In this document: one piece after another, positions 7,828 through 56,677 of the stretch
Numbering within the stretch: position 1 is the first letter of the stretch
Layout: each line of letters starts with the position of its first letter
Translations under genes and position numbers: made by a program
Notes under the pieces: model-generated
The model's input: only the letters and a program-made list of their open reading frames with translations
Told to the model about the DNA's origin: nothing
Database searches by the model: none
Assembly: GCF_900107545.1 (NCBI RefSeq)
Contig: NZ_FNQZ01000005.1
Location: 1 to 64,000, forward strand
Length of the DNA: 64,000 nucleotides
Direction: 5' to 3'
Source of the DNA: Pseudobutyrivibrio sp. ACV-2
GTDB taxonomy: Bacteria; Bacillota; Clostridia; Lachnospirales; Lachnospiraceae

Positions 7828-8020
7828 CTAAAAATCCTCCATTTTAATAATGTCCCTTTTAATCATTCATATTTATACCCAATTGAAGGAGTCAAAATAC
7901 AATTGTGTTTTAACTCCATACTTAGCTAGTTTATGAATAATTCACATTTCTGTAAATAAGTATCCTTTATATTTTATAAAATTTTAATCTTTTTAAATAC
8001 AGTAATTATAATATACAAAA

Positions 8021-18248: not shown

Positions 18249-18501
18249 TTGATAATTATTGCCTTCCTGGGGTTCAAATGCTGCCAAGGTAAGCAGCATT
18301 TGAATCTGCCTTTGGCAGACACTAATTTTGTTCCAAAATCAGTGCCATGTACGGAAAGTAATAATTTGATAATTATTACTTTCCTGGGTTCAAATGCTGC
18401 CAAGGTAAGCAGCATTTGAATCTGCCTTTGGCAGACACTAATTTTGTTCCAAAATCAGTGCCATGTACGGAAAGTAATAATTTGATAATTATTACTTTCC
18501 T
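18249..18501. repeat. Tandem 116-bp multi-hairpin repeat, two copies plus a partial third
   Basis: Unit starts fall at 18249, 18366 and 18482 (period 116-117 bp). The two full copies are almost identical, differing by a few bases near TTCCTGGG. Each unit holds CAAATGCTGC/GCAGCATTTG, CTGCC-TTT-GGCAG and CACT-A-ATTTTG/CAAAAT-C-AGTG hairpins. Across unit borders, GGAAAGTAATAATT-TGAT-AATTATTACTTTCC forms a perfect 14-bp stem. The third, partial unit overlaps the last codons and stop of the esterase gene. No coding role was seen. Confidence 0.9.
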
Positions 18502-47579: not shown

Positions 47580-47843
47580 ATTCACCCTGCCCTGAAATTT
47601 ATGGAAGCCTATGATACTAAAAATGGAACGGAATACCTTACCACACTTAAAACCTACATTCAAAAAAATAGAAGTGCCCCAGCCGCAGCCGAAGCACTTC
47701 ATATTCATAAATCTACGTTTTTTTATCGAATCGAAAAAATGAAAGCTCTATTTGGGATTGATATTACAAATCCCGATGATATGTTTGCTTATGAGATTTC
47801 ATTAAAGCTAATGAACATCTCACGCTATCACAGGAACAATTAA
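47580..47843 (+). pseudogene. 5'-truncated PucR/CdaR-type regulator, C-terminal HTH only
   Basis: About 88 residues match the C-terminal PucR helix-turn-helix domain: IHPALKFMEAYDTKNGTEYL, then AAAEALHIHKSTFFYRIEKM and GIDITNPDD. The upstream sensory and GGDEF-like domains of a normal regulator (400-550 residues) are absent. The reading frame runs back to an ATG at 47511 only because it crosses the opposite oxidoreductase fragment. Its stop overlaps that of the convergent flavodoxin gene by a few bases. Confidence 0.75.
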
Positions 47844-48844
47844 GCCTTTACATTGCCATTTGCATTTGTATCAACTGGCCATACGCCTGGGTTGAAGTCT
47901 GCATAAGGCTGCTTAAGCTCCTTGAGGTTCTTGATAGTGCCTGCTGGCTGAGCCTGAGTCTTGATTTCTGTAGAGTGCTCAAGCTTACCACCCCAACGAA
48001 GTCTTGAACGATCAAGCTCTTCCTGTGTGTAGTGCATTACAAACTCACCATCAACAATATCAAATGTTCCACGGCTTCCGCAAACAAGGCAAGAAGCTGT
48101 CTTTTTGTCATGAGCAAACTGGATAAGTCTTGTGTGGCAGATTGGGCATGTTCCCTCTTCCTCGCCACGGAACTTGATTCTTTCTTCCTCATCCTCAGCG
48201 TTGATAGAAGCAACGATGTTCTTACCAACCTGAGTCATTCTAGACATCATCTCTGGGTTACCTGCTACGTTCTCGCAAGCCATAGCTCCGTAGTACTCAA
48301 CTGTATCTACAACATCGATAGCCATTGGGAATGTGAACTCGTACATCATTGGAAGTGTAAGAGCAATCCACTCTTCTGTCATAGCTCCACCTACAGAAAT
48401 AAGAGCTGCTGAACGCTTCTTGAAAGCTCTTGTATCTGGAAGCTGCTCCTCTGGAACACCAGCTGCCTTTCCTTCATCGTAGCGAGCCTTTCTGAATGTG
48501 ATATCGTGGCTAGGTCCGATTCTATCGCAAATAGTTTTGAATCTACCTGTAACTGATGTCTCATATGTAGGGCAAGCAAGGATAACAGCATCTGCCTGCA
48601 TAACTGCCTCATCAAGAATATCGAAATCATCATGCTTTACACAGTATCCACGGCCACGGCCAGACATCATACCGATAACACATGCGATACATCCTGTACA
48701 ATTATTGATATCTAAATCATCTGCGCGAAGAAATGCAACATCACAACCTTCTCTCTCGCACTCCATAAGTGCTTCTTTAACCATAACATCACAGTTTGAC
48801 ATCTTACGGCCAAATGAAATACCAAGTACTTTTTTCTTTTCCAT
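47840..48844 (-). CDS. Flavodoxin-like oxidoreductase with C-terminal zinc ribbon
   Basis: A 334-residue NADPH-dependent FMN reductase-type flavoprotein. The flavodoxin-like domain (about residues 1-220) has GISFGRKMSNCDVMVKEAL at the phosphate loop, a CTGCIAC motif, and CPTYETSVTGRFKTICDRIG. A zinc ribbon follows (CPICHTRLIQ...CLVCGS, about 239-265) and a tail of about 65 residues. It has a paralogue at 53144-54100. It probably reduces a flavin or an organic substrate, or supplies electrons to a flavin oxidoreductase like the broken one next to it. Confidence 0.82.
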   Translation of the reverse strand: MEKKKVLGISFGRKMSNCDVMVKEALMECEREGCDVAFLRADDLDINNCTGCIACVIGMMSGRGRGYCVKHDDFDILDEAVMQADAVILACPTYETSVTGRFKTICDRIGPSHDITFRKARYDEGKAAGVPEEQLPDTRAFKKRSAALISVGGAMTEEWIALTLPMMYEFTFPMAIDVVDTVEYYGAMACENVAGNPEMMSRMTQVGKNIVASINAEDEEERIKFRGEEEGTCPICHTRLIQFAHDKKTASCLVCGSRGTFDIVDGEFVMHYTQEELDRSRLRWGGKLEHSTEIKTQAQPAGTIKNLKELKQPYADFNPGVWPVDTNANGNVKA

Positions 48845-48919: not shown

Positions 48920-49095
48920 AAATGTTATGCCTCCTTTTGTCAATTTTTGCAAGGATATTTGATTGTTAAAAAATACGCAATATTTCTTTGTCAAATATTG
49001 CAGCTCAAAAAATATTACTATTGTCGACTCTTCTACTTCATAGAAAAAACTTAATTATGTAGTATTCTTAGGATAGTGCGTTGGAGATTTCAATA

Positions 49096-51303
49096 ATGAA
49101 TAATTTTTTTAAAAAAATATATTTTTTTATCATTTTTTCTTTAATACTTACTCCATTTTGTGTAATCAAATCTACTGCCAGTTCCGGAACCTTAAAACCT
49201 ACTATTACAGTAGGTGTACCTACAGATAGGTGTCCTATGCTTTACGTGGACGATTCAGATAATATCGTTGGTATAGGCATTGATTTATTGCGGATTGCGG
49301 CTGAAAACGCAGGCTATGATGTGACATTTGAGGAAATTGAAGAAAAAACCCTAAAGGACGCGCTTGATAACCCAGCGTATGATTTAGTTATGCCACTAGG
49401 TAGCGCTATAAAAAGTGCTGCAGGACAAGACACTGTTATTTCAGAAGATCTCATGGTAACACCATTTACTATTGTCACTTCTGTTGGAGACCCACTTCCA
49501 GACCTTACTCATTCAAAAATAGGAATGCTAAGCTCATTAGCTGGTGGTGCAGAAACTCTCAAAACTTTATATCCTGAAATAGAAATAGTTTTCTTTAAAA
49601 CAATGCCAGATTGTATAGATGCCCTTCGCAAAGATAGGGTAAATGCTCTGATTCACAATACTTATGTGTGGAGCTATATTCTTCAAAAGCCTTCATACAA
49701 GGATTTGATTATACATCCTTCTACTGTGTATACTGTGGAATTTCAGGTTGGTGCCATAGATACACCTGAAAGCAGGGCTCTCATTAGCGGTATTAATCAG
49801 GGCATTTCAATGATTAGTGATTCCCAAAGACAGGCTATTATTTTGGATTACACTTCACGTAAACTTTATAAATACACTTTCTACGATTATATTTATGTTT
49901 ATGGCTACATTATTTTTAGTGCCTGCATAATCATTATTCTTATTACACTACATTTTATCTCGCAGCAACGACTGATCAAAAAAGAGCAGGAACATAAAAT
50001 CCGCCAATTGACTGAGTATGATTCTCTCACTGGTGCCTTCAGCGCTGCGGGCTTTAACAAAAAAGTTATTGAACTATTACAAACAAATCCTACAACACCT
50101 TACATTATCACCTATAACAATATTAAGAATTTTAAATTTATAAACAATCAATTAGGTAGACAGGCGGGGGATGACTTACTTAGATTTTTCGTTGAAAGAG
50201 TGTCTGAACACCTTACTCCTAAGGAAGCTATAGGAAGACTGGACGCTGATCATTTTGTCCTACTTGCTATAATTCCTGAAGGAAGCATTTTGGACAATCG
50301 AGTCCAATCCATATTAACACCAATAAAAAATTTCTTTATTAACAGAGGCAGTGACTATGATGTGCAGGTAAGCTATGGTATCTATGTTTTAACACCATCT
50401 GACTACGAAACCTTGGAAATAGACCATATGCTAGACTATGCAAGATTTGCCGAAAGAAAAGCCAGGGAATCTAATAGTGGTGATTATGAGGTATATAACA
50501 TTGACCAATGGGAAAAGGGAAAACTTCTTTCAGATGTATGCGGACATTTTTCTACAGCTTTAAAACAAAATGAAATTCAAGTGTGGTATCAACCACAGGT
50601 AAATTACAAAACAGGTAAAATAGTTGGTGCTGAGGCTTTATGTAGATGGAATCATGGTGCTTTAGGCTGGATTAGCCCTGGTCTTTTTATTCCTATGCTA
50701 GAGCAAGCAAATCTCATCTATGAGTTGGACAAATATGTATGGGACAAAGTCTGTCAGGATATACACAGGTGGGATAAACAGGGTGACAAAAAATCCATTT
50801 CCATCAACCTGTCTCGATTCGATATTGAGGCAAATAACAATATTGCAAAATACTTTAGTGATTTGACTAAACGCCATAATATATCGCCTTTACAATTACG
50901 AATAGAAATTACCGAAGGTGCCTACGTGGCAAACTCGCAGCTGATACTAGAAACCACAGAAAGACTCCATGAATATGGCTTCATAGTAGAAATGGATGAT
51001 TTCGGCAGTGGATACTCCTCTTTAAATATGCTTAAAGAAGTACCTGTAAATGTAATAAAACTAGACTATGGTTTCTTTAGAGGCGAGCTGCACAAGGATA
51101 AAAGTAAAATTATTATCAATCATATAATAAAAATGTTACGTAGTCTTCAAATTGACCTTATAGCTGAAGGCGTCGAGACAAAAGAACAGGCAGATTTCCT
51201 TTTAGATAAAGGTTGTGACATCATGCAAGGCTTTTACTTTTTCAAACCTATGCCGGTAAATGATTTTGAAGCTTTAGATTTTAATAATATCAGCCTTAAA
51301 TAA
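49096..51303 (+). CDS. Periplasmic-sensor GGDEF-EAL protein, probable c-di-GMP phosphodiesterase
   Basis: A 735-residue membrane protein. A signal/anchor (about residues 6-30) precedes a family 3 solute-binding domain (about 38-262; TITVGVPTDRCPMLYVDDSD), a transmembrane helix (about 272-293), a degenerate GGDEF domain (about 310-455; DADHF replaces GGDEF) and an EAL domain (about 480-725). EAL residues are intact: GAEALCRW, RIEITEGAY, MDDFGSGYSSLNML, LIAEGVETKEQ, QGFYFFKPMP. It should hydrolyse c-di-GMP in response to an extracellular amino acid-like ligand. The ATG at 49096 follows GGAG by ten bases; the upstream in-frame TTG at 49081 is less likely. A terminator follows. Confidence 0.9.
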   Translation: MNNFFKKIYFFIIFSLILTPFCVIKSTASSGTLKPTITVGVPTDRCPMLYVDDSDNIVGIGIDLLRIAAENAGYDVTFEEIEEKTLKDALDNPAYDLVMPLGSAIKSAAGQDTVISEDLMVTPFTIVTSVGDPLPDLTHSKIGMLSSLAGGAETLKTLYPEIEIVFFKTMPDCIDALRKDRVNALIHNTYVWSYILQKPSYKDLIIHPSTVYTVEFQVGAIDTPESRALISGINQGISMISDSQRQAIILDYTSRKLYKYTFYDYIYVYGYIIFSACIIIILITLHFISQQRLIKKEQEHKIRQLTEYDSLTGAFSAAGFNKKVIELLQTNPTTPYIITYNNIKNFKFINNQLGRQAGDDLLRFFVERVSEHLTPKEAIGRLDADHFVLLAIIPEGSILDNRVQSILTPIKNFFINRGSDYDVQVSYGIYVLTPSDYETLEIDHMLDYARFAERKARESNSGDYEVYNIDQWEKGKLLSDVCGHFSTALKQNEIQVWYQPQVNYKTGKIVGAEALCRWNHGALGWISPGLFIPMLEQANLIYELDKYVWDKVCQDIHRWDKQGDKKSISINLSRFDIEANNNIAKYFSDLTKRHNISPLQLRIEITEGAYVANSQLILETTERLHEYGFIVEMDDFGSGYSSLNMLKEVPVNVIKLDYGFFRGELHKDKSKIIINHIIKMLRSLQIDLIAEGVETKEQADFLLDKGCDIMQGFYFFKPMPVNDFEALDFNNISLK

Positions 51304-51369: not shown

Positions 51370-52839
51370 TTAGATTCCACGATTATTATTTCTTTCTGTA
51401 AGACCATCTCTTACCTTGTCCATGTAACCTGGCTTGTCAAGAGTATAGAAAAGAAGTGGAATGATACCAAGTAAGAATACAATACCTGGAAGAAGGTTTG
51501 CACACATATCAATACCAAACTGGATGTGTGAAATCTGGCTTGTTAAATCAGCAATAACAGATGATTCTGTTGCTGCTTCAAGCTGACCCTTAAGAGCAAA
51601 CATATTGTCATAACCGAACTTACCCATGATTACAAGGAATAATGAGTTTGCAAGGGCTGTACCAATCTTTGTAGCCATTCCTGAGAATGAGAATGCCATA
51701 CCATCATTTCTGTAACCATACTTAAGATCGAAATCATCGATAGCATCAACTATCATACCACTTCCTGAAGGGCCAGCGATGTAACCTAAGCCGTAGATAA
51801 CCATCATAACAAAGTTGAATGGAATGCTCTCTGCTGGTCCAAAGAAGATGATGATAAGTGAAAGACCCTGAATAAGCATTGAAACAATAGCGATGTTTCT
51901 CTTACCATACTTCATGCAAAGTCTTGGAGCGATTGGCATTACAATTGTACCAACAATCATCTGCATCATCATGAAGATTGTGATGAATGCAAAGTTCTGA
52001 ACACAGTGCATATAGAAGTAAACTGCAACTGAAATACGACCAAGCATACCAAACATGTTCATTAAGCTATAAAGTAATGCGCAAACAAGGTTCTTGTTTT
52101 TAGCAATAAGCTTAAGACCTTCGATAATGCTACCCTGCTCGCTCTTCTTAACATCAATTCTTTCCTTTGAAAGTGCTGCTACTGCCCAGAACATTGGAAG
52201 TGCAATGAGTGCAAGAAGAATTGCTGTTGAATGATAACCTGCAGCCTGCTCGCCGTGACCAAACCACTCTACGAGACGAAGAACAAAAAGGTTAAGGATA
52301 ATCTGACCGATTGTCATACCCATCATCTGAGCTGCATTAAGCTTATTGATTTCCTTAGGGTCACGTGTCATAACAACTGGAAGTGCAAGATAAGGCACGT
52401 TTGTCATTGTGTATGACATACCAAGACCGATGTATGTAATGTAAGCATAAGCAAGCTTAGCTGGACCAGAGAAACCTGGCACTGTAAATGTAAGTACTGT
52501 AAAGATAACAAGGAATATTGCACCAACAACAATGTATGGACGGAAGCGGCCATGCTTTGTGTGAGTACGTTCCATAATTGTTCCCATCATAGGATCGTTA
52601 ATACCATCCCATACCTTTGCAATAAGCATCAGAAGTGCAACTGCACCTGTTCCTAAACCGAATACATCAGTATAGAAAATTGAAAGGTAAGTGCTTACCA
52701 TTGTCCATGAAAGCTGGGAAGCAAAGTTGCCCATTCCATAAACAAGATAGTTGATTGGCTTTAGTGGTGCCATGCCATACTGGTTCACTTTGGTGATGCC
52801 AGATTTTGCAGATGTGCCTGCCATGTTAGTAGTATCCAT
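51370..52839 (-). CDS. GPH-family symporter
   Basis: A 489-residue transporter with about twelve helices. The family motif IAKVWDGINDPMMGTIMERT and GRFRPYIVVGA are present. It is more distant from the two xylo-locus symporters in this window than they are from each other. It is downstream of the second flavodoxin/zinc-ribbon gene with two remarkable hairpins between them. That context suggests uptake of the substrate of the reductive pathway, perhaps a glycoside of an aromatic compound, but this is inference. GGGGG precedes the ATG. Confidence 0.9.
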   Translation of the reverse strand: MDTTNMAGTSAKSGITKVNQYGMAPLKPINYLVYGMGNFASQLSWTMVSTYLSIFYTDVFGLGTGAVALLMLIAKVWDGINDPMMGTIMERTHTKHGRFRPYIVVGAIFLVIFTVLTFTVPGFSGPAKLAYAYITYIGLGMSYTMTNVPYLALPVVMTRDPKEINKLNAAQMMGMTIGQIILNLFVLRLVEWFGHGEQAAGYHSTAILLALIALPMFWAVAALSKERIDVKKSEQGSIIEGLKLIAKNKNLVCALLYSLMNMFGMLGRISVAVYFYMHCVQNFAFITIFMMMQMIVGTIVMPIAPRLCMKYGKRNIAIVSMLIQGLSLIIIFFGPAESIPFNFVMMVIYGLGYIAGPSGSGMIVDAIDDFDLKYGYRNDGMAFSFSGMATKIGTALANSLFLVIMGKFGYDNMFALKGQLEAATESSVIADLTSQISHIQFGIDMCANLLPGIVFLLGIIPLLFYTLDKPGYMDKVRDGLTERNNNRGI

Positions 52840-52877
52840 TGTTTTTCCCCCTTTTTAACAAATGAATAATTTACTCC

Positions 52878-52959
52878 GTCATCTCTGTGAATATCTAATT
52901 ATTTTGGTTATCACTTTGTTATACTCAACCAAAATAATAAGATATTCATCAGAGATGAC
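52878..52959 (-). promoter_or_regulatory. Long covarying hairpin F1 upstream of the symporter gene
   Basis: A 31-bp stem with a fixed architecture: 10 bp (52878-52887 with 52950-52959), a bulged T at 52949, 9 bp (52888-52896 with 52940-52948), an A-A mismatch (52897, 52939), 12 bp (52898-52909 with 52927-52938), and the 17-nt loop ATCACTTTGTTATACTC (52910-52926). It lies 38 bp upstream of the symporter start. Compare F2. Confidence 0.8.
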
Positions 52960-52994
52960 TCACTTAACCATGTGAAATTCTAGTAATTTACCCC

Positions 52995-53076
52995 GCCATT
53001 CCTGTGAAAATCTAATTGTTTTTGTTATCACTTTGTTATACTCAACAAAAACAATAAGATTTTCATCAGGAATGGC
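52995..53076 (-). promoter_or_regulatory. Long covarying hairpin F2, tandem partner of F1
   Basis: The architecture is identical to F1: 10 bp (52995-53004 with 53067-53076), bulged T at 53066, 9 bp (53005-53013 with 53057-53065), A-A mismatch (53014, 53056), 12 bp (53015-53026 with 53044-53055) and the same 17-nt loop (53027-53043). Relative to F1 six stem pairs are changed, all on both sides so pairing is kept. The repeat period is 117 bp. Flanks (TAATTTAC.CC before, CTCA.TTAA after) are also similar. Confidence 0.8.
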
Positions 53077-53115
53077 TCATTTAAATTTGTTAGGTTTATT
53101 ATTCACCTGGGACAA

Positions 53116-53150
53116 GTGGGTTGCACACTGTGCAACGCTTAAGTTAGTCC
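53116..53150 (-). terminator. Hairpin at the end of the second flavodoxin gene
   Basis: GTTGCAC-ACT-GTGCAAC (53120-53136) lies just past the stop, enclosed by a possible GGGAC/GTCCC pairing that includes the last codons. There is no T run, so it may be a processing or partial-termination hairpin. Confidence 0.45.
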
Positions 53151-54100
53151 CAATGTAAATCGAAATTTTTGTACTTCTCCATCATCACCGGCAATGTGTC
53201 TTTGTTGGCTTGGAGTTTAGGGACGCAGACGGTGATCATGTTTTGGATTTCGTTGTAGTGCTCGTAGATTCCTGGAATTGTGTTACGAGCTCTATTCTTC
53301 TGCTCTTCAGAAAACTCTACTGTTACCTTATCCCCATCTACAGAGAGCTTTCCATAAATACCACAGATTGGGCACTCAACTGTTGTTGTGCCATTCATTG
53401 AAAGAAGTGGATTGTGGCAAACTGGGCAAACGCCTTCATCGCCAACCCATGTATCTACCTCATCATATGGCTTGCCCAAAGATTCAGCTACAGCTGTACC
53501 AAGGTCTGCACACTTCTTCATAAGGTCCTTGTCAAATAATGGATGACCTGTACGTCCCTGATCATATGCATCTACGTGACCTACGCACTTCATGCAGAAT
53601 GAGAATGAGAATAGATCAAGCATTGGAAGTCCAAGCGCTACCCAGTTGTGTGTCTGAGCACCACCAACTGAAATGTAACCTACATATCTGTCCTTGAAAT
53701 ATCTCTCATCAAGGAGTGGCTTGCCAGCTTCGGCACGCTTTTTGTTTTCCTCTAAAAGAGCTGCTCTATCGTGTGATGGACCAAATCTGTCTACAAAGTT
53801 TTTGAATTGACCAACGATACCTACAGCATAAACTGGAGCACCGATGATGATTCCGTCTGCCTCTAAGCACTTCTCCTCAAGGATTGAATAATCATCCTTC
53901 ATACAGCAGTGGATTTCCACGTCTCCCTTATCTCTGCAGCGGCTGCAATAATCGCAAGCTCTGCAATGTCCGATGTTAAGTCTTACTGTATTGATAAACT
54001 CTACTTCTGCCCCTGCAGCCTTTGCAGCGAAGAGAGCCTCCTTTACCATAACATCACTTCTTTGATCGATACGACCAAAAGAAATACCTAATACCTTCAT
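53144..54100 (-). CDS. Flavodoxin-like oxidoreductase with C-terminal zinc ribbon (paralogue)
   Basis: A 318-residue paralogue of the protein at 47840-48844. It has GISFGRIDQRSDVMVKEAL, a Cys-rich HCRACDYCSRCRDKGDVEI segment (a possible iron-sulfur or zinc site), PVYAVGIVGQFKNFVDRFG, and a zinc ribbon CPVCHNPLLS...CPICGIYG (about residues 228-250). The C-terminal tail (KNFDLHWD) is shorter. It is upstream of the GPH symporter, with the F1/F2 hairpins between. AAAGGAG precedes the ATG. Confidence 0.82.
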   Translation of the reverse strand: MKVLGISFGRIDQRSDVMVKEALFAAKAAGAEVEFINTVRLNIGHCRACDYCSRCRDKGDVEIHCCMKDDYSILEEKCLEADGIIIGAPVYAVGIVGQFKNFVDRFGPSHDRAALLEENKKRAEAGKPLLDERYFKDRYVGYISVGGAQTHNWVALGLPMLDLFSFSFCMKCVGHVDAYDQGRTGHPLFDKDLMKKCADLGTAVAESLGKPYDEVDTWVGDEGVCPVCHNPLLSMNGTTTVECPICGIYGKLSVDGDKVTVEFSEEQKNRARNTIPGIYEHYNEIQNMITVCVPKLQANKDTLPVMMEKYKNFDLHWD

Positions 54101-54274: not shown

Positions 54275-56677
54275 TCAATCATAATTAAATTGGTATTTTA
54301 TCTCTATAAATCTTACCTCTGAGGCTCTTAGAATATACTCTATCTCAAGCTTTCCGTCATTAACCTCTATCTGCTGCATCTCCATATTTGGATTGGCATG
54401 TTGTTTGATAAACTGGATTTCCTCACTCTCCATAGAGTTGGAAAGATTCAATCTCTTCCACAAATCCTGAACGCTACCGTATTCAGGATTTATGTAATAG
54501 GTCTTCACCTGATAGGTGCCATTTTGAACATTGTCCAGTCTAAAATTCAGCTGTAAATCTTCCGCATCCTCAAGGTAGTGCTCAATATCCTTTATCTGAA
54601 TCATATCCTCATCTATATCTAAATATTTTTCAGACAGACCCTTGAAGTTATGACATACTATAGAAAAGCTTCCTCTTCCATTAGTGTTTAGCATGGCATT
54701 TTCATTGCGCATCAGCTCCTTTGAGTGTGCCCTGTTCATAAATTCTATTGCATAGAATGATGGCTTTTTTATTCCATCCCTTGAAATCAATCCTGCATCG
54801 CCACTTAGGAGTGTGTTTGTATCATAAAATTCTGCATACAAATCCAGACCATGCCAGTAGCTCATTACATCCACATTCCCTGCCATATCAATGTAGTTTT
54901 TCATGATGTAAGCGGCCTGATTACAGCTATCGTTCAATACATTTCTATTTGAAATAGTAAAATTCCATTCATCTAGATGAATTTCCTTTACAGAAAAATT
55001 AGCATCTGCCATTTCCTGTTTTACTATTGTTATCTGATTGATAAGATAATTCTTATCTAGAGACTTCTTTCCATATGTATTATCACCATCTGTAAAAGAC
55101 ACATATTGATATGAGTTAAAGGATATGTAATCTGGTTGTATTTCTCTTTTTCGCCAGATAGCAAATACTGCCTTTGACAGTTCATTTTCATATCCAAGCA
55201 CCAGTCCTGGACCACCAATTCTAATGTCCTCACTGATATTTTTAAAGGTGGTATAAATCATATCGAAATACTTGTAATACTCACCATCAGCTCGTCCAAT
55301 ATGAAGCTTTGGATTGTTCCAGAATTCAAAATACCATTTTTCGATTTCTTCTATGCCATAGCGATTTACCAGATGGATCCCTAAATCCTTTATAAGCTCT
55401 TTATAGAAATCGTACTCAAATGGCTGCTCATCCTTCAGCTCATTAATATAGCGCTCCGGCCCATACATAAAAAGTGTAGGCTTCTGCCCCAACTCCATGT
55501 AGACCTTTATATCATTATCATTTAAAAAATCAAGAACATTATCAAGCTTATGAAAGCTATGCTTGCCGCCATCCCTGATGCACACTTCATCAGCAAATAC
55601 GTTCCATACCCTCACATGGGTGATGCCAAGCTTATTCTTTAGCTCCAAAAGCTGTTCCTGGGCTTCTTGTTGTAGCAGCATGTAGATATTTCCAATATTA
55701 ATAACTCTGGTTTTGTCCACGTAGCTCTTTTTATATTCTGTGGCATCCACCTCGATTAGTTTTTTGTTAGCTGCAAAATGAGCTTCGTGTGCCTCCTCGT
55801 TTTCAATAAATGAAATAATCTGCTTCTTACCCTGCTCATCAGCCTGTAAAATGGCATTCTGCTGTTTTCTATTTTCGTAATTTTTTCTGTATTCGCCAGG
55901 TGATACATTAAATACCTTTTTGAAGGATTTATTGAAGGCTGCAGACGTGCTAAAGCCATTATCCATAGCTATATGAGTCAAACTTTTATTAGTGTAAATC
56001 AACTCATCCACCGCATGGAAAAGACGAATGTTGTTCAGATAATCCACAAAGGTCATGCCAAATTTCTTTTTTATATACTTTGACAAATAAGCAGGTGTTA
56101 AAAACATCTGATCTGCCAGATCATTAAGACTTATGGCCGCCTGATAATGTCCCTGAATATAGCTTTGTATTTCACTTATGCGCTCTTTTTCAGCATCATT
56201 ATCAAAGAGAATTCTGGCTTCATCTGTTTTTACCATGAAATTGGCAATGAGGATATGAAGCATCTCATAATACAATGCCTGCAGATAGCAGTTGTCATGT
56301 TGCCCTTTGGCATAGTAATAGCGGATGATTTCTTTCATCTGATGTCTCAGCTTGTCGTAGGCTGAATTTTTATCAACCGCAGAATTGCATAAAAACAGCA
56401 TCTGGGTAGTGCCCACAGTCTGAGACAAAAGATAATAATCGATTGCAAATCTAATAGCCAAAAGATTTCCGGAGTTTTCAAATTTATGACGCTTATTTGA
56501 GTTAATAAGAATCATATCCTCCTTTTTCAGATTATAGATTTTGTCATCAATAACCACATCCACTGAGCCTGAAAGAACATAAAGCATATCTATATTCTGA
56601 TGATAGTGCTGCTCCCTTGGCTCACTGTTTGATTCATGAATAATATTAAATTCCACAATTTCTCTAATCTTTTCCAT
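54275..56677 (-). CDS. AraC-type regulator fused to a degenerate GH39 domain (second copy)
   Basis: An 800-residue protein with the same plan as that at 27603-29999: cupin (about residues 20-85; EQHYHQNIDMLYVLSGSVDV), AraC motifs (about 170-265; ISLNDLADQMFLTPAYLSKYI, THIAMDNGFSTSAAFNKSF) and a GH39-like domain (about 310-795). In the acid/base motif FEFWNNP the catalytic Glu is replaced by Asn455, while the nucleophile is retained as Glu570 in HLDEWNFTISNRN. Such a domain could bind but not efficiently hydrolyse a xyloside. It follows a GPH symporter gene. The ribosome binding site before this ATG is weak. Confidence 0.88.
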   Translation of the reverse strand: MEKIREIVEFNIIHESNSEPREQHYHQNIDMLYVLSGSVDVVIDDKIYNLKKEDMILINSNKRHKFENSGNLLAIRFAIDYYLLSQTVGTTQMLFLCNSAVDKNSAYDKLRHQMKEIIRYYYAKGQHDNCYLQALYYEMLHILIANFMVKTDEARILFDNDAEKERISEIQSYIQGHYQAAISLNDLADQMFLTPAYLSKYIKKKFGMTFVDYLNNIRLFHAVDELIYTNKSLTHIAMDNGFSTSAAFNKSFKKVFNVSPGEYRKNYENRKQQNAILQADEQGKKQIISFIENEEAHEAHFAANKKLIEVDATEYKKSYVDKTRVINIGNIYMLLQQEAQEQLLELKNKLGITHVRVWNVFADEVCIRDGGKHSFHKLDNVLDFLNDNDIKVYMELGQKPTLFMYGPERYINELKDEQPFEYDFYKELIKDLGIHLVNRYGIEEIEKWYFEFWNNPKLHIGRADGEYYKYFDMIYTTFKNISEDIRIGGPGLVLGYENELSKAVFAIWRKREIQPDYISFNSYQYVSFTDGDNTYGKKSLDKNYLINQITIVKQEMADANFSVKEIHLDEWNFTISNRNVLNDSCNQAAYIMKNYIDMAGNVDVMSYWHGLDLYAEFYDTNTLLSGDAGLISRDGIKKPSFYAIEFMNRAHSKELMRNENAMLNTNGRGSFSIVCHNFKGLSEKYLDIDEDMIQIKDIEHYLEDAEDLQLNFRLDNVQNGTYQVKTYYINPEYGSVQDLWKRLNLSNSMESEEIQFIKQHANPNMEMQQIEVNDGKLEIEYILRASEVRFIEIKYQFNYD

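Follow-up and report, generated by a model that had tools for sequence, protein, structure and literature searches.

Two long hairpins upstream of a symporter gene in Pseudobutyrivibrio sp. ACV-2, which we call F1 and F2, are a tandem pair from a family of dispersed RNA hairpins, which among the genomes searched was confined to Pseudobutyrivibrio and numbers about 40 copies in this genome. This assignment is well supported and, judging from the pattern of stem substitutions, maintenance of the fold at the RNA level likewise appears well supported. As to what the family does, our best reading, held with roughly even confidence, is a gained-and-lost intercistronic mRNA element that would affect processing or stability of the message.

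The window, a 64,000-nt stretch of contig NZ_FNQZ01000005.1, carries both hairpins in the gap between two co-directional genes. The features at this locus are as follows.

51370–52839, minus strand: downstream gene, a GPH:cation symporter of 489 aa (TIGR00792, 300 bits versus a cut-off of 231, E 2.4e-89)
52847–52851, minus strand: GGGGG tract resembling a ribosome-binding site of the symporter gene, 26 nt below the base of F1
52867–52967, no strand assigned: tandem repeat unit 1, hairpin plus flanks
52878–52959, minus strand: hairpin F1, 31 bp with a bulged A, a T·T mismatch and a 17-nt tip; matched by model R2 (see below) at 68.9 bits, by construction, as F1 is a training copy of R2
52910–52926, minus strand: apical motif of F1, GAGTATA-AC-AAA-GT-GAT, a variant of GARTATA-GC-GAAA-GC-GAT
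52984–53084, no strand assigned: tandem repeat unit 2
52995–53076, minus strand: hairpin F2, with F1 geometry and six compensated pair changes; R2 match of 68.8 bits, also a training copy
53027–53043, minus strand: apical motif of F2, identical to that of F1
53120–53136, no strand assigned: small palindrome GTTGCACACTGTGCAAC, directly after the stop of the upstream gene and outside the hairpin family
53144–54100, minus strand: upstream co-directional gene, a flavodoxin-like protein of 318 aa, named by sequence appearance

F1 and F2 lie in a direct repeat of 101 nt per unit, with 86% identity and a spacing of 117. On the minus strand, which is the strand of the genes, each folds, from base to tip, into stem segments of 10, 9 and 12 bp under a 17-nt loop, the first two segments being separated by a bulged A and the last two by a T·T mismatch; viewed from the plus strand, the irregularities are a bulged T and an A-A mismatch. 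Direct counting reproduced exactly the geometry and the unchanged loop, bulge and mismatch described in a first-pass annotation of this DNA, as none of the unpaired columns differs between copies. The six compensatory stem changes claimed there were also borne out: 6 of the 31 pairs differ, all six are two-sided, and all are paired in both copies. Four of these changes are possible via G·U, and two (TA/AT and GC/TA) are not. Folding stability is far beyond that of shuffled sequences (z of -9.8 to -10.9; in none of four foldings, which cover both strands, did any of 200 shuffles reach the same stability). The loop contains a 2-bp ministem (AC AAA GU) that covaries across the family. No T run lies 3′ of either stem in the window sequence, and the hairpins therefore do not have the form of intrinsic terminators. 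Scans of 52600–53300 found no promoter and no terminator, the latter scan allowing loops of 3–8 only. The G-rich tract before the symporter gene is present also in relatives without hairpins, and the upstream protein at 53144–54100 gave no NCBIfam match at E 1e-20.

The 17-nt tip recurs elsewhere in the same genome. There, blastn identified a third copy on contig C43 above a different stem sequence, and a pattern search located the exact tip at five places in 3.66 Mb, all of which cap long hairpins. Of the 10 tip places in 29 Pseudobutyrivibrio genomes, seven are hairpins; the other three, tip-like sites in G401, G416 and G422, have a changed first base. With one mismatch allowed, a search of 397 family genomes matched in 18 others, and at none of these 18 places does the tip end a long stem, as judged from foldings. 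Similarly, only one of 25 exact matches in genome_contigs is a hairpin, that of Pseudobutyrivibrio sp. SIG315, which lies upstream of the same GPH symporter gene. On these counts, the tip sequence alone was rejected as a family marker.

Covariance models gave a fuller account of the family. Model R1, built from seven copies, found many further copies and a wider tip; model R2, built from 38 copies and applied at a threshold of E ≤ 0.01, returned 109 matches in 18 of the 29 Pseudobutyrivibrio genomes. Forty-three of these are in the present genome (G000), 21 in G153, 11 in G421, 8 in G406 and 6 in G423; G404 and G414 have four each, G403 has two, and ten others have one each. Of the 18 positive genomes, 16 could be shown to have the tip motif as well, G409 and G420 being model matches only. 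The R2 search gave no match in the other 11 of the 29 genomes, which indicates that the element is dispensable. Beyond G000 and G153, R2 yielded a single weak hit in 397 family genomes (G124), which does not fold as a member, and in 391 class genomes, a set overlapping the family set, it matched only G000 and G153; with 13–14 candidates scored per genome in these searches, single distant copies could be missed. A set of 98 members was defined from 102 raw motif hits by removing four without a GARTATA...GAT tip, with identical sequences collapsed (the G398 copy equals the G399 copy). This motif filter kept 41 of 43 matches in G000 and 19 of 21 in G153, and missed a changed-tip copy in G400 and some of the 109 model matches. 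Overall, the element recurs at 59 distinct loci, and only within Pseudobutyrivibrio among the genomes searched.

The wider tip reads GARTATA-GC-GAAA-GC-GAT, with the ministem variants GT..AC, GG..CC and AC..GT, and the ministem pairs covary (GC/AU and CG/UA). At the other end, many members have a basal GC...GC stem, and many have an asymmetric A/GUA internal loop together with a CAA/UUG pair block, the conserved CAA/UUG pairs sitting 4 nt inside the GUA loop. A mid-helix of about 15 bp is paired while its sequence varies freely, and the inner stem is U-rich/A-rich, followed by GARUAUA, the 2-bp ministem with its small loop, and GAU. Stem length has a median of 37 pairs (IQR 34–39), and tandem G·A/A·G takes the place of two pairs under the tip in 8 of 24 full-length members. 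The family cleanly separates features that are held (tip, base, length and pairing) from a stem sequence that is free.

Covariation is extensive. In an alignment of 38 members (A5), with stems ungapped and anchored on the tip and with members with shifted stems among those found left out, 93.6% of cells are paired and all 23 modelled pairs show two-sided changes, the paired share being raised by the retrieval of most members through structure-aware models. The covariation score of these 38 members is 0.922, compared with 0.202 for shuffled alignments and 0.115–0.174 with partners slid. Given no structure, RNAalifold predicted 33 pairs from the 24 full-length members, 27 with double changes, and its consensus includes the basal helix and the A/GUA internal loop; these members were chosen partly by GTA motifs, and conservation of those letters is thus not independent. 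The full compensation described in the first-pass annotation stands for F1 and F2 but not family-wide, as the L073 and L074 copies differ by one-sided stem changes. Nonetheless, the outcomes named there as evidence against a selected structure, uncompensated homologues or confinement to one locus, are countered by this degree of pairing and by recurrence, which together support selection for the folded form. The foldings of F1 and F2 and the RNAalifold consensus of 24 members showed no second conformation. Kink-turn and loop-E readings of the base and tip, considered by eye only, were set aside.

Six copies (L117, L144, L145, L208, L209 and L222) form a subfamily with a tip ministem of GGCTTGACC or GGACTGACC. 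Four of the six were called between convergent genes, and in several the stem lies between A-rich and T-rich tracts, resembling a bidirectional terminator. A/T tracts are found at the stem base of some members between convergent genes.

A fold kept as RNA tolerates G·U pairs and not A·C, whereas a fold kept as DNA, or by arm-to-arm copying, predicts equality of the two. On the sense strand, we counted 83 G·T and 11 A·C at stem positions 4–18 from the tip in 94 members; this core count omits four of the 98, three lying between divergent genes and one without a downstream ORF. The ratio is 53:9 in the 58 of these members that come from loci outside model building, and by class it is 63:8 for sense (n = 72), 13:3 for antisense (n = 12) and 7:0 for convergent copies (n = 10). 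The seven copies sharing the F1/F2 tip exactly or with one mismatch gave 6:1 in a gapped count and 10:3 in a longer count. Keto skew is absent from both flanks (0.97) and 4-fold sites (0.98), and mutation would therefore not explain the G·T excess. Choosing members by structure-aware models and a pairing filter that counts G·U favours both pairing and G·U, a bias that we judge too weak to account for 83:11 because only 4 of the 109 matches score below 44 bits, with the limit near 31. The suggestion that the excess is confined to sense copies (137:28 versus 24:21 in the gapped count) was withdrawn, as the core-only comparison gave a Fisher p of 1.0.

From this asymmetry, an RNA fold rather than a cruciform appears to be kept; where the first-pass annotation had left a choice between an RNA and a protein-bound cruciform, the former is favoured and the latter disfavoured. 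A cruciform or recombination site acting as DNA would suit the long near-perfect palindromes and the tandem arrays with a period near 100 bp, but it is extremely improbable in view of the G·T/A·C asymmetry, the sense orientation bias described below, the lack of a phage or plasmid match for the pieces searched, and the finding of a hairpin in none of four tip-bearing viral contigs. Neutral templated correction, by which palindrome arms would copy each other in replication and produce compensation without selection, could explain the two F1/F2 changes that lack a G·U intermediate and the 1225 of 1410 core stem positions that are Watson-Crick in the 94 members. We regard it as very unlikely: the process is strand-neutral, yet G·T exceeds A·C, and the bulge and the T·T mismatch, which such copying would tend to remove, are both kept in F1 and F2 and the latter also in the G406 copy. 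Templated correction also leaves the nearly invariant tip and the covarying ministem unexplained.

The genomic context of the family is biased toward one orientation. Among the 98 members, 72 are in sense between co-directional genes, 12 are antisense, 10 convergent, three divergent and one unclear; collapsed by flanking proteins, the 59 distinct loci comprise 37 sense, 10 antisense, nine convergent, two divergent and one unclear. Sense exceeds antisense over distinct loci (37 versus 10, p = 1e-4). Eighteen of the 59 loci were found in more than one genome, and as many as five genomes carry the element ahead of the same gene. For 52 of the 56 single sense copies, those with a neighbour more than 300 nt from the tip having been dropped and three negative distances arising from start-codon calling, the median distance from hairpin base to start codon is 22 nt (IQR 15–55), versus 60.5 nt (36–100) to the upstream stop. 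With starts called by script, 33 of the 52 are nearer the start, 18 are nearer the stop and one is tied (Wilcoxon p 0.04).

Downstream genes that score above the NCBIfam cut-off are the GPH symporter gene, era, prfA, a fructose-6-phosphate aldolase gene, carA, rlmB and argJ. The nadB- and purF-like proteins have strong E-values below the cut-off, their sequences having been cut at 330 residues, and fabZ, dapA, gpsA, obg and fabF are further neighbour names given by sequence appearance only. Eight loci, that of the window among them, have tandem copies, spaced 79–142 nt apart. The largest array, at locus L197, has four copies at 101–102 nt spacing upstream of a nadB-like (L-aspartate oxidase-like) gene.

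Script positions 7873–8178 of L197 (G000 contig C37, about 210784–211148), minus strand: four-copy array

Two copies precede a similar gene in G421, and one does so in G153.

These surroundings revise the first-pass option of an RNA in the 5′ region of the GPH symporter gene. The family precedes genes as mixed as era, prfA, rlmB and the symporter gene, and its position here is a gap between co-directional genes that spans only 19–72 nt in relatives, so the element is probably inside an operon rather than in a separate leader. In addition, the 12 antisense and 10 convergent copies among the 98 share the G·T excess, an observation not expected from a role in operons alone. A regulated leader, in which the element would control translation or transcription of the next gene as a riboswitch-like or protein-binding switch, draws support from the proximity of the hairpin to the start codon, from the biosynthetic role of several downstream genes (nadB- and purF-like, carA and argJ) and from the presence of elements before the same gene in up to five genomes. 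The mixed gene set, the single conformation in the foldings made and the many convergent or antisense copies argue against such a switch, and we consider it quite unlikely.

Comparison with relatives points to gain and loss. The gap at the window locus measures 304 nt with two hairpins here and 167 nt with one in G406; where it lacks a family hairpin, it measures 72 nt in G417, 61 in G404, 37 in G408, 27 in both G412 and G421, 21 in G415 and 19 in G405, so that the element was either gained in, or lost from, an otherwise tight gene pair. At the aldolase gene, G000, G153, G404, G421 and G423 have the family tip upstream, and the other 24 of 29 loci with a readable start (27 genomes) lack it. 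Copies L073 and L074 are 98% identical at unlinked loci, which shows spread within a genome, and G153 has a sense/antisense copy pair of 89% identity. Overall, comparison of copies shows that they arise by tandem duplication and by spread to new loci, and that species have some loci in common.

The main rival to an mRNA element is a purely selfish, non-autonomous mobile repeat (MITE/REP-like). Such a repeat would have no host function and would spread in hairpin form, its sense copies surviving because antisense copies harm operons. Copy numbers from 0 to 43 among the 29 congeners, absence from orthologous gaps, near-identical unlinked copies, the 89% sense/antisense pair and the tandem arrays would all fit, and we hold this to be possible, though not probable. 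It is less easily reconciled with the 18 loci common to more than one genome, or with stems as the variable part, which a transposase would read as terminal repeats. In fact, MITE-type conserved terminal inverted repeats were not found in the family, in which most of the stem is variable and short basal letters recur. Furthermore, no target-site duplication was identified, the element-free gaps in relatives being too diverged to place junctions by eye, and transposases of the Y1 type, the only type examined, do not track copy number.

REPs are shorter and have conserved stems. As in REP/BIME elements, a GCC...GGC base occurs in many members here; many also have a GTAG tetranucleotide, but inside the stem rather than beside the hairpin, and the 24 full-length members were chosen partly by it. 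Unlike REP/BIME with RAYT, the family has no link to Y1 transposases: Y1_Tnp is found in 10 of the 29 genomes, with none at E 1e-5 in G421, G404 and G414, which hold 11, 4 and 4 copies. A REP/RAYT system was rejected because Y1 presence does not follow copy number. The present genome encodes a Y1 protein beside a comM-like gene (named by appearance) and a broken Y1 copy. Positions 52800–53150 gave no plasmid match, one full-length member gave no phage or plasmid match, and the exact F1/F2 tip is absent from viral contigs, four of which carry other tip variants without a hairpin. A phage, plasmid or viral origin was rejected on the basis of these searches.

Under the preferred reading of an intercistronic mRNA element, the hairpin would be transcribed inside a polycistronic mRNA, co-transcription being suggested by gene order, and an RNase or RNA-binding protein would recognise its tip and base. 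Recognition would then cut or protect the message at that point, and flanking genes would be expressed at different levels; in the window, the sugar symporter would be uncoupled from the redox-type gene above it. That the hairpins sit closer to the start codon below them would fit 5′-end protection or translation control as well. A mobile post-transcriptional regulon, which we consider unlikely, would have a dedicated factor reading the GARUAUA/ministem/GAU tip and the basal motif, with the helix as a spacer of set length; the bacterium would bring operons under this control through new copies, at times in tandem arrays of two to four.

Rfam 15 gave no match in the window at the gathering threshold, in line with the earlier suspicion that no known RNA family is involved. 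A relaxed search of 52700–53300 (E up to 1) returned 30 matches, all below gathering score and mostly to microRNA precursors. Release of small double-stranded or guide RNAs from the hairpin by an RNase III-type enzyme, loosely as from a microRNA precursor, would accord with these resemblances and with a constant tip and base around a variable stem of 37 pairs (median; IQR 34–39). Such a role is hardly credible, as the resemblances score far under the gathering thresholds and any long hairpin might produce them. Across 20 member loci, Rfam found only a lysine riboswitch, outside the element. This riboswitch (L120, 2639–2815, minus strand, 110 bits) lies near a family member preceding a dapA-like gene, named by appearance.

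Among the papers listed in open-licence PubMed Central for Pseudobutyrivibrio, Butyrivibrio, Lachnospiraceae or noncoding RNA, no description of this hairpin family was found, which is weak evidence of absence. The family thus appears to be an undescribed structured RNA, whose covariation is very strong and of which one genome has about 40 copies. Its mode of action may resemble that of selective RNA processing and stabilisation (SRPS) stem-loops and of NEMIS/BOX-type repeats. In the excerpt of PMC4423207, SRPS stem-loops in operon gaps set transcript ratios in Clostridium cellulolyticum; 3′ processing sites go with 27 of the 33, and the stem-loops are not described there as one common family. 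The present elements resemble those in that excerpt as operon-gap stem-loops that are mostly not terminators and are gained or lost between species (PMC4423207); 72 of the 98 members are in sense in co-directional gaps, and F1 and F2 are stable stem-loops with no T run. They differ from the SRPS of the excerpt in being one homologous family, in which tip and base are conserved, and in lying closer to the downstream start codon (PMC4423207).

The excerpts of PMC3049150 and PMC2229807 describe dispersed hairpin repeats that are targeted by RNase III or RNase E. Among them, the Correia/NEMIS elements of Neisseria, of about 107 and 155 bp, are transcribed with their neighbours and are proposed RNase III targets (PMC2229807, PMC3049150). 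The present family is similar in consisting of short dispersed hairpin elements; as the same excerpts describe them, Correia/NEMIS have 24-bp terminal inverted repeats and target-site duplications, whereas here stem sequence varies and no duplication was identified (PMC2229807, PMC3049150). For the BOX, RUP and SPRITE repeats of Streptococcus pneumoniae, the excerpt of PMC3049150 argues that repeats are better tolerated downstream of genes than between cotranscribed genes; in contrast, most copies here are in sense between co-directional genes. Membership in these listed families is not indicated, given the lack of an Rfam match, the variable terminal repeats and the lack of a Y1 transposase link. 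With this family, it becomes testable whether a repeat that spreads can turn into a layer of regulation, and by what route operon gaps acquire their hairpins.

Other features of the window were noted in passing. Two flavodoxin-like proteins of similar appearance, at 47840–48844 and 53144–54100 (both minus strand), flank the symporter gene. Two further genes are described by appearance only: one near the symporter gene for an 800-aa fusion of an AraC-type regulator and a glycoside-hydrolase-like domain at 54275–56677 (minus strand), and one at 49081–51303 (plus strand) for a 740-aa protein in which GGDEF and EAL domains follow a substrate-binding domain. A 116-nt tandem duplication next to a gene end at 18273–18500, where R2 gave no match, has 32-nt palindromes in each unit. 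Finally, positions 164–292 hold a long imperfect inverted repeat with arms of 54 nt that are 80% complementary.
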